DNA from: Herbaspirillum sp. DW155
Lineage (GTDB): Bacteria > Pseudomonadota > Gammaproteobacteria > Burkholderiales > Burkholderiaceae_D
Length of the DNA stretch: 64,000 nucleotides
Assembly (NCBI RefSeq): GCF_037076565.1
Contig: NZ_AP029028.1
Coordinates: 868,001 to 932,000, forward strand
Direction of reading: 5' to 3'
In this document: in pieces, positions 1,864 to 4,485 of the stretch
Layout: each line of letters starts with the position of its first letter
Numbering within the stretch: position 1 is the stretch's first letter
The notes under the pieces: generated by a model
Database searches by the model: none
What the model was told of the DNA's origin: nothing
The model's input: the letters and a program-made list of their open reading frames with translations, nothing else
Made by a program: the position numbers and the translations under genes

Positions 1864-2622
1864 TTACTTTGCGATCACCACTTCCACATCGGTCTCCGCC
1901 AGCAACGCCGCCAGTTCAGGCGGGGGCGGAGCATCGGTGAAGAGCACGTCGATCTGCGAGAGGTGCGCCATCTTCACCAGCGCCTGCCGGCCGAACTTGC
2001 TGGCGTCGGCCACCAGCCAGACCTGGCGCGATTGTTCGATGATGGTCTGGGCCACCTTGACCTCGCGTGCATCGAAGTCGCGCAGCACGCCATCCATCTC
2101 GATGCTGGAGATGCCGATGATGCCGATGTCCACCTTGAACTGCCGGATGAAATCGATGGTGGCCTCGCCCACGATGCCGCGGTCGCGCGCGCGCACCACG
2201 CCCCCGGCGATGATGACCTCCAGCGCCGGATTGCTGGCCAGCGAGGTCGCCACGTTCAGGTTGTTGGTCACCACGTGCAGGTTCTTGTGCTGCTGCAGGG
2301 CGCGCGCCACTTCTTCGGTGGTGGTGCCCAGGTTGAGGATCAGCGAACAGCCGTCCGGCACCCGCGCCGCCACCGTGCGGCCGATGCGGCGCTTGGCCTC
2401 CGCATGCATGACCTGGCGCTCGGGATAGGCGATGTTCTCGGTCGAGGACAGCAGGCTGACCCCGCCGTGATAGCGCGCCAGCAGACTCGCATCGACCATG
2501 GCCTTGACGTCGCGGCGTACGGTCTGGGTCGTCACGTTCAGTTGCTGGGCCAGCTCTTCCACGGAAATGGTGCCGTGCTTGCGCACGCATTCCAGCAGCG
2601 TCTGTTGCCTGGGATTGAGCAT
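1864..2622 (-). CDS. glpR: DeoR-family glycerol-3-phosphate regulon repressor GlpR
   Basis: This 252-residue protein has an N-terminal winged HTH of the DeoR type (residues about 6-57, with VEELAQQLNVTTQTVRRD) and a C-terminal sugar-phosphate sensor domain (NLGTTTEEVA, TNNLNVA, GIIGISSIEMDG, VADASKFGR). GlpR proteins repress glycerol genes and are released by glycerol-3-phosphate. I chose the ATG at 2620-2622 because residues after it align with the family (MLNPRQQ). The frame stays open to 2859, but that extension is non-conserved leader sequence. The gene is transcribed divergently from glpD, and the shared 321-bp region carries candidate operators at 2673-2718. Confidence 0.92.
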   Translation of the reverse strand: MLNPRQQTLLECVRKHGTISVEELAQQLNVTTQTVRRDVKAMVDASLLARYHGGVSLLSSTENIAYPERQVMHAEAKRRIGRTVAARVPDGCSLILNLGTTTEEVARALQQHKNLHVVTNNLNVATSLASNPALEVIIAGGVVRARDRGIVGEATIDFIRQFKVDIGIIGISSIEMDGVLRDFDAREVKVAQTIIEQSRQVWLVADASKFGRQALVKMAHLSQIDVLFTDAPPPPELAALLAETDVEVVIAK

Positions 2623-2672: not shown

Positions 2673-2718
2673 GAACATTAAAAAACATAAACGAACATAA
2701 AACAACAAATAATTGTTG
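2673..2718. promoter_or_regulatory. Candidate GlpR operator: 10-bp phased repeats plus palindrome
   Basis: Four consecutive 10-mers, GAACATTAAA, AAACATAAAC, GAACATAAAA and CAACAAATAA (2673-2712), form an AT-rich direct-repeat array with one copy per helical turn. The last merges into a near-palindrome CAACAAATAATTGTTG (2703-2718). It lies 50 bp upstream of glpR and just ahead of the proposed glpD promoter. DeoR-family regulators often bind repeated half-sites, so GlpR binding is a reasonable inference. Confidence 0.5.
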
Positions 2719-2745
2719 ATTTACTTTCGGGATGTCGCTTATCTT
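2716..2745 (+). promoter_or_regulatory. Candidate sigma-70 promoter for glpD
   Basis: TTGATT (2716-2721) and TATCTT (2740-2745) are separated by 18 bp. The -35 box overlaps the palindrome of the candidate GlpR operator. This start would give a leader of about 190 nt before glpD. Confidence 0.4.
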
Positions 2746-2823
2746 ACGGTGCACTGACAACTCTAGGGAAAGTCCGCGCGGCACGCTCGCTGTTGCGTAG
2801 CAGTACACCGGCATCGCGGCGGG

Positions 2824-2934
2824 CAATACGGTTCTTTCCCTCTGGCAATACGGTTTCAAACCGGCAGCAATACAGTCGGCAATACAGTCAGCAATACAGT
2901 TTCAACACAGTTTCAATACGGAACCAATACGGAG
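2824..2934 (+). repeat. Eight CAATACRGT repeats phased at 11/12/22 bp in the glpD leader
   Basis: Copies begin at 2824, 2846, 2868, 2880, 2892, 2903, 2914 and 2925. The spacings are 22, 22, 12, 12, 11, 11 and 11 bp. The consensus is CAATACRGTY with few changes (one CAACACAGTT, and the last two end in GGAA and GGAG). The final copy runs into the ribosome binding sequence GGAGAAG ahead of the glpD ATG. The period is not a multiple of three, so this is not a repeat peptide. Function is unknown. Confidence 0.8.
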
Positions 2935-2943
2935 AAGCGGCGA

Positions 2944-4485
2944 ATGACGCTCGAATATGATCTCTTGGTGGTCGGCGGCGGCATCAACGGCGCGGGCATC
3001 GCGCGCGATGCGGCCGGCCGCGGCCTGCGGGTGCTGCTGTGCGAACAGCATGACCTGGCCCAGCATACTTCCTCGGCCAGCACCAAGCTCATCCACGGCG
3101 GCCTGCGCTACCTCGAGTACTACGAATTCAAGCTGGTGCGCAAGGCACTGCAGGAACGCGAAGTGCTGCTGCGCTCGGCACCGCACATCATCTGGCCGCT
3201 GCGCTTCGTCATGCCGCACGACGCCAGCCAGCGCCCGGCCTGGATGATCCGCGCCGGCCTGTTCATGTACGACCACCTCGCCAGGCGCGAGATCCTGCCG
3301 CCCTCCGAAGGCGCCAACCTGAGCCGCCACGCCGCTGGTCAGCCGCTCAAGGGCGACTACCGCAAGGGCTTCGTCTATTCCGATGGCTGGGTCGATGATG
3401 CCCGCCTGGTGGTGTTGAATGCGATGGACGCGCAAGAACACGGTGCCCGCATCCTCACCCGCACCAAATGCATCAGCGCCCGCCGTGAAGGCAACCTCTG
3501 GCACGCCGTGCTGGAACAACAGCATGCCGGCGGCGTGCAGCAGGAAGAAGTGCGTGCCCGCGCCATCGTCAACGCCGCCGGCCCCTGGGCTGCGCGCTTT
3601 GCGCAGTCGGTGCCGCAGGCCAGGACCGGGCGCAGCCTGCGCCTGATCAAGGGCAGCCACATCGTGGTCAAGCGCCTGTTCGATCACCCTTACGCCTACA
3701 TCTTCCAGAATCCGGACAAGCGCATCATCTTCGCCATCCCCTACCAGGAAGAATTCACCTTGATCGGCACCACCGATCTCGAATACCACGGCGATGCCGG
3801 CAAGGTCGAGATCGATGCGCAGGAGATCGAGTATCTCTGCGAGATGGCCAACCGCTATTTCAAGCGCCAGATCAGCCAGGCCGACGTGGTGTGGACCTAC
3901 TCGGGCGTGCGTCCGCTGCTGGACGACAGCGCCGAGAATGCCTCGGCCATCACGCGCGACTACCTGCTCGAATGTGACGATGCCGGCGCCCCCATGCTCA
4001 ACGTCTGGGGCGGCAAGATCACCACCTATCGCAAGCTGGCCGAAGAAGCGCTGTCCATGCTGGCCCCGCATCTGGGCGCATCGAGCAAGCCGTGGACGGC
4101 CGGTGCGCCGCTGCCCGGCGGCGACCTGGAACAGCCCGGCAAGATGGTGGCGCGCTATGACTTCGATGCCTGGCTGCGCAAGTTCCAGGCGCGCCATCCG
4201 TGGCTGCCGGTTGAGCTTGCCCATCGCTATGCACGCAGCTATGGTTCGCGCGTGGAGCAGATCATCGGCCAGGCCGACAGCCTGGCCGCGCTGGGCGAAG
4301 AACTGACACCGGGCCTCTACGAGGCCGAAGCGCGCTATCTGGTGCAACACGAATGGGCGCGCGGCGCGGACGACATCCTGTGGCGCAGGAGCAAGCTGGG
4401 CCTGCATTGCGGGCCGCAGCACAGAGGACGACTGGAGGCGTGGCTGGCCAGTGTGCCGGACCCCGCCGCCCCAGTCCCCCACTGA
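2944..4485 (+). CDS. glpD: Aerobic glycerol-3-phosphate dehydrogenase
   Basis: This 513-residue FAD enzyme oxidises sn-glycerol-3-phosphate to dihydroxyacetone phosphate and passes electrons to the quinone pool at the inner membrane. The dinucleotide-binding motif GGGINGAG is at 11-18, the conserved STKLIHGGLRY block at 46-56, and a late GGKITTYRKLAEE block marks the end of the DAO domain before the C-terminal helical domain. Length agrees with bacterial GlpD (about 500). It is the first gene of the glycerol operon and the phased repeat array reaches its ribosome binding site. Confidence 0.96.
   Translation: MTLEYDLLVVGGGINGAGIARDAAGRGLRVLLCEQHDLAQHTSSASTKLIHGGLRYLEYYEFKLVRKALQEREVLLRSAPHIIWPLRFVMPHDASQRPAWMIRAGLFMYDHLARREILPPSEGANLSRHAAGQPLKGDYRKGFVYSDGWVDDARLVVLNAMDAQEHGARILTRTKCISARREGNLWHAVLEQQHAGGVQQEEVRARAIVNAAGPWAARFAQSVPQARTGRSLRLIKGSHIVVKRLFDHPYAYIFQNPDKRIIFAIPYQEEFTLIGTTDLEYHGDAGKVEIDAQEIEYLCEMANRYFKRQISQADVVWTYSGVRPLLDDSAENASAITRDYLLECDDAGAPMLNVWGGKITTYRKLAEEALSMLAPHLGASSKPWTAGAPLPGGDLEQPGKMVARYDFDAWLRKFQARHPWLPVELAHRYARSYGSRVEQIIGQADSLAALGEELTPGLYEAEARYLVQHEWARGADDILWRRSKLGLHCGPQHRGRLEAWLASVPDPAAPVPH

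Follow-up and report, generated by a model that had tools for sequence, protein, structure and literature searches.

The leader of glpD, the glycerol-3-phosphate dehydrogenase gene of Herbaspirillum sp. DW155, contains eight CAAYACRG boxes, a motif that matches the half-site of an operator of probable OapR type. Our leading but tentative explanation, drawn from sequence comparison and held at a probability of about 0.45, is that the array consists of operator boxes bound by an OapR-like regulator, or by a paralogue recognizing that box, and that this binding affects glpD to some degree, as a roadblock or as a sink for the regulator.

The array in the glpD leader

The sequence studied was a window of 64,000 nucleotides, positions 868001-932000 of the 5.47-Mb chromosome of Herbaspirillum sp. 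DW155 (genome G000); coordinates without a genome label refer to this window. The eight boxes lie on the plus strand between the divergent genes glpR and glpD, and their starts follow each other at intervals of 22, 22, 12, 12, 11, 11 and 11 bp. Read as the nonamer CAATACRGT, five of the eight copies are exact and three have one mismatch (CAACACAGT once, CAATACGGA twice). The features of the region are the following.

1864-2622, minus strand: glpR, gene of a DeoR/GlpR-family regulator, divergent from glpD
2673-2707, strand not given: direct repeats of GAACATWAAA type preceding the glpD promoter, candidate GlpR operator
2716-2745, plus strand: predicted glpD promoter TTGATT (2716-2721)-N18-TATCTT (2740-2745), proposed from genus-wide conservation
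2801-2808, plus strand: worn possible ninth box CAGTACAC, 23 bp upstream of box 1
2824-2933, plus strand: the whole eight-box CAAYACRG array, glpD leader
2824-2832, plus strand: box 1, CAATACGGT
2846-2854, plus strand: box 2, CAATACGGT
2868-2876, plus strand: box 3, CAATACAGT, among the six best OapR-type single boxes in 864 kb
2880-2888, plus strand: box 4, CAATACAGT
2892-2900, plus strand: box 5, CAATACAGT, also among the six best in 864 kb
2903-2911, plus strand: box 6, CAACACAGT, one mismatch
2914-2922, plus strand: box 7, CAATACGGA, one mismatch
2925-2933, plus strand: box 8, CAATACGGA, overlapping the ribosome-binding site GGAG (2931-2934)
2944-4485, plus strand: glpD, ATG at 2944

The array is situated between the conserved promoter, which a consensus promoter scan did not report, and the glpD ATG, and its last box runs into the GGAG. 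A tandem-repeat report covered only boxes 3-5 and 6-7, with 91-92% matches; elsewhere the spacers are unequal.

The GAACATWAAA-type repeats are likely to be the GlpR operator. They are separate from the array and are conserved in relatives whether or not these have it. The array shares the intergenic region with this DeoR-family operator, but the candidate GlpR repeats stand upstream of the promoter and are conserved, whereas the array has a different motif and is not. The array motif is not part of the conserved glpR-glpD operator region; array-free relatives retain both the repeats and the promoter. An array of GlpR operators was ruled out by these differences in motif and position. A peptide-coding repeat was rejected as well, most spacings not being multiples of three, and a 331-aa open reading frame with a TTG start, running antisense through the array, proved to be glpR read from too early a start.

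The array box matches a half-site of a putative OapR-type operator

The sequence CAATACAG-N14-CAATACAG was found in most of the Herbaspirillum genomes searched, between a MocR-family gene and a divergent omega-aminotransferase gene. In the genome of DW155 the regulator gene is:

G000:C1:5284630-5286045: OapR-like MocR-family regulator with GntR and aminotransferase domains

The divergent gene scores above the cut-off for AptA and is followed by a gene for an MMSDH-type semialdehyde dehydrogenase. Across the 22 Herbaspirillum species whose region was read, the two boxes with their 22-bp distance are conserved and much of the remaining region is not. These pairs always have ACAG, never ACGG. Mirrored boxes stand on the regulator side in most of the closer species, in DW155 including a pair 12 bp apart, and an inverted GTGTAKC is present in the region. 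Orthologues in other genera and families of the order (44-66% identity) also face an omega-aminotransferase gene, and next to several of them there are boxes of a related NATACAGTT type at a distance of 22-23 bp.

Genome context and published descriptions make the Herbaspirillum protein a candidate member of the OapR group. It shares with the beta-alanine-inducible OapR system of Cupriavidus necator the genome context of a divergent omega-aminotransferase and a semialdehyde dehydrogenase; the available portion of that report describes no arrays (PMC7057948). The C. necator OapR responds to beta-alanine and has been suggested to act as a dual regulator (PMC7057948). The operators of MocR regulators are direct repeats one or several helical turns apart (PMC5320631, Suvorova and Rodionov 2016), an arrangement to which the glpD boxes conform. 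Known operators of this kind have between two and four boxes, placed close to the promoter they regulate (PMC5320631), whereas the glpD array has eight in the leader of an unrelated gene. Betaproteobacterial OapR operators consist of two direct boxes and an inverted one, and in the glpD leader there is no inverted third box.

Boxes 3-5 of the array are identical to CAATACAG and box 6 differs from it by one change, while boxes 1, 2, 7 and 8 read ACGG. Pairs of boxes 22 bp apart occur several times in the array, the other spacings being 11-12 bp. The array is adjacent neither to the regulator gene nor to a known kind of target: the regulator lies at 5.28 Mb of the contig and glpD at 0.87 Mb.

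The match was assessed with a 35-position matrix trained on the operators of 16 species that the motif searches had shown to be free of such arrays (15 distinct sequences). The scan covered 864 kb of G000 together with the permease and OapR loci, approximately 870 kb. The OapR operator ranked highest with 32.9, and was followed by pairs at the glpD (21.2 and 13.7), permease (19.2 and 13.3), marR (9.9) and chalcone-isomerase-like (8.5) loci. The best unrelated place scored 7.1, below all array loci. The ACGG boxes taken singly score low; 62-105 places in the 864 kb score as high or higher. Because of the matrix ranking, a protein that binds the OapR operator should bind the glpD array, perhaps not at every box. 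One of the three readings offered by the initial annotation, an array for a transcription factor, has thereby gained a candidate regulator, the box being a conserved MocR/OapR-type half-site, although its binding is a prediction from sequence.

Arrays at other loci and in related species

CAAYACRG boxes are rare in the sampled DNA, with a mean density of 0.006 boxes per 110 bp in 864 kb of G000. In this sample 110-bp windows with at least four boxes were found at the glpD, marR and chalcone-isomerase-like loci only, and a reversed control motif never occurred twice within 110 bp. The low density and the result with the reversed control indicate that the eight-box array is no chance cluster. 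An unbiased search of the same 864 kb (16% of the genome, a sample partly chosen around known arrays) for any 8-mer occurring four times within 110 bp returned ten clusters, among which the array motif alone recurred at more than one locus. Outside the arrays no excess of lone CAATACAG boxes was seen in intergenic DNA, as delimited by crude gene calls.

The initial annotation had proposed looking for further clusters in the genome, and such clusters do exist elsewhere in G000. Pattern searches with a reversed control, which nearly always gave zero, and reading of the loci revealed similar arrays with 11- and 22-bp spacing at about eight further loci in one branch of Herbaspirillum, that is, about nine loci with glpD:

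before marR, divergent from emrA
before an amino-acid ABC permease gene, within its operon
before a chalcone-isomerase-like gene
before a lipoprotein gene
before the gene of a TAT-type protein, adjoining a GMC oxidoreductase
before a MazG-like gene
before a STAS gene, within a chemotaxis operon
before a gene at G019:4732166

The subset of loci that carry an array differs from species to species. Every array stands immediately upstream of a start codon, and several are inside operons. At eight of nine loci the array is sense to the next gene (p = 0.02; seven of eight without the divergent marR locus, p = 0.035). The chalcone-isomerase-like array is antisense in both species carrying it, and inverted boxes are present at the marR and permease loci. 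The distances between successive boxes, counted with one more degenerate box position allowed, fall at 10-12, 21-24, 32-33 or 43-45 bp in 98 of 108 cases (21 arrays, eight loci). Spacings of 12 bp were found in G000 only, where they occur at three loci (5/14 versus 0/35, p = 0.001). Our literature search found no description of such repeats in Herbaspirillum.

A 12-bp-period repeat of boxes from G000:C1:295449 onward was left out of the array count; it lies inside an adhesin-like coding sequence, in which Asn-Thr-Val-Ser codons are repeated with a four-codon period. At G008:C5:100055 three inverted boxes CTGTATTG CCGTATTG CTGTATTG, 8 bp apart, directly follow the stop codon of an ABC substrate-binding gene; their orientation is opposite to that of the sense array located downstream.

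In 15 of 16 aligned pairs there are fewer differences in the boxes than in the spacers (3/40 versus 17/37 for the chalcone-isomerase-like locus of G000 and H. huttiense), a count in which the boxes themselves may have anchored the alignments of more distant species. For the close and nearly colinear pair H. huttiense and H. aquaticum, with four loci pooled, the corresponding difference gave p = 0.11.

The glpD array is present in G000 and in the three closest relatives examined, H. huttiense (G028), H. aquaticum (G025) and strain GW103 (G008); a three-gene tree places the four in one clade. Since its distribution is confined to this clade, the simplest history is a single gain or expansion of the array in their common ancestor, followed by later alteration. 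The four arrays differ in length, copy number and units. Variation of copy number and spacing among relatives, which the initial annotation had suggested examining, is thus found for both, one genome having been compared per species, so that the differences are differences between species. In the next relatives, G020, G011, G012 and G013, the leader is short and has no array, with the same promoter and glpD start, and the glpD leader of G019 has one or two worn boxes left. The initial annotation had regarded loss of the array in relatives with unchanged glpD regulation as a sign of neutral drift. The absence of the array from close relatives, which still have glpR, the promoter and glpD, agrees with the first half of this expectation.

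Helical phase

At 10.5 bp per turn the eight boxes stand at 0, 34, 69, 120, 171, 189, 206 and 223 degrees. The suggestion of one shared helical face for all copies is incorrect at this pitch: the boxes wind through approximately 220 degrees, with a mean vector of 0.29, which rises to 0.86-0.96 at 11-11.2 bp per turn. Neighbouring boxes and pairs 22 bp apart are in phase, whereas the two ends of the array are not. The argument from regular phase to selection is likewise weak, because the period is 11 rather than 10.5 bp and because an unrelated leader repeat in G000, CTGAAGTGGCC, also has an 11-bp period. Helical phasing was ruled out as proof of selection, given this repeat and the lack of a common face at 10.5 bp per turn.

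Possible action of the array and competing explanations

If the boxes act as operators, the OapR-like protein is the most likely binder of the amplified half-sites. A head-to-tail MocR dimer that recognizes CAATACAG-N14-CAATACAG could also bind the pairs in the array, several dimers at once. Since the array lies between promoter and start codon, the bound dimers would mainly block glpD transcription as a roadblock; alternatively, the array may serve as a sink for the regulator. A response to the ligand of the regulator (beta-alanine in the case of C. necator OapR) would be expected. The array may have grown as units of 11-12 bp were duplicated locally in tandem, and may have been kept because of, or despite, the binding.

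The operator-box explanation draws on the conserved box pair between the regulator and aminotransferase genes, the matrix ranking, the sole recurrent motif of the unbiased scan, the regular spacings (98/108), the conservation of the boxes and the known operators of MocR regulators. Against it speak the ACGG sequence and low scores of half of the glpD boxes, the lack of the inverted third box, the absence of one helical face common to the whole array at 10.5 bp per turn, and the p = 0.11 for box over spacer conservation in the close pair. In addition, the genes beside the arrays have no clear common function, several arrays are inside operons rather than at promoters, and most species with an OapR-like regulator have no arrays. 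A wider version of this explanation, which we consider less likely than not, is that tandem amplification of one half-site in leaders and operon gaps of unrelated genes has given a MocR regulator new targets in one branch of Herbaspirillum. The targets would be glpD, marR/emrA and the amino-acid permease, chalcone-isomerase-like, lipoprotein, MazG-like and STAS genes, and the arrays, of up to a dozen boxes, would be new, fast-changing control elements or regulator sinks.

The closest rival, which we regard as a real possibility even though the odds are against it, is a dispersed short repeat with no regulatory role. Insertions are tolerated in the stretch that separates a ribosome-binding site from the promoter or gene upstream of it; an 11-bp unit would have been seeded there several times and multiplied by slippage or by copying between loci of one genome. 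Such an origin would fit the variable presence of the arrays among close relatives. The confinement of 12-bp spacings to three loci of G000 looks as if units had been swapped between loci, and in the closest pair, H. huttiense and H. aquaticum, spacers diverge faster than flanks at three of four loci. Ordinary tandem repeats, including the one with an 11-bp period, are found in other leaders of G000. The chalcone-isomerase-like array of H. huttiense is bounded by TTGCCC repeats, and H. aquaticum has an empty site whose sequence is the one that removal of all the DNA between these repeats would leave, which may reflect either deletion between short repeats or insertion with a duplicated target.

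Homogeneous slippage arrays, however, have equal spacers, whereas in arrays of the glpD type the spacers differ and the boxes stay. As regards the slippage-born tandem repeat envisaged by the initial annotation, the copy number varies between species, and the spacers are unequal outside boxes 3-5 and 6-7. Slippage-born minisatellites (VNTRs) resemble the array in their head-to-tail units of 11-12 bp and in copy number differing between species, but the array differs from them in having variable spacers between constant boxes and in that about nine loci share its box. In the 864-kb scan every other motif was confined to a single locus. The match to the conserved 22-bp operator pair would require coincidence or ancestry; a repeat seeded from the operator could owe its likeness to descent and not to use.

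An action at the level of RNA appears improbable. CAAUACRG repeats in the transcript would bind a protein, a small RNA or Rho every 11 nt or so and control translation or termination. The sense orientation at eight of nine loci (p = 0.02), the location of all arrays just before a start codon, several of them within operons, and the excess of C over G in the glpD array (29 versus 20) are what such an element would show. The antisense array at the chalcone-isomerase-like locus in two species and the inverted boxes at the marR and permease loci argue against it, as does the identity of the array box to a DNA operator box. The glpD leader folds no better than shuffled sequences (z = 0.68) and matches nothing at gathering score in Rfam, which ruled out a riboswitch or known RNA. 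The earlier proposal of a leader RNA element thus retains the sense bias and the position before start codons, and is weakened by the antisense loci and by the lack of a fold or an Rfam match.

Should the regulator bind, close species would offer a natural series in which one half-site has been gained, lost or changed in copy number. The array-free relatives would be the controls, and the growth of a target set through leader repeat expansion would be directly testable. Should it not bind, the arrays would be a clear case of a dispersed short repeat imitating an operator, and a caution against calling regulons from motif matches only.

Other repeats in the sampled sequence

Three other repeats were seen in the sampled stretches of G000. 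The CTGAAGTGGCC copies, 11 bp apart, at G000:C1:4271695 are an ordinary tandem repeat of unrelated motif, apparently in the leader of a minus-strand gene. At G000:C1:4317364 a gene leader contains TCTAAGTA at least six times, with a distance of 8 bp. A further set of 8-mers, present in about 80 copies, can be assembled into a palindromic repeat similar to GGTTCATCCCCGCATACGCGGGGACCAG, which in its sequence resembles the repeat of a type I-E CRISPR array.
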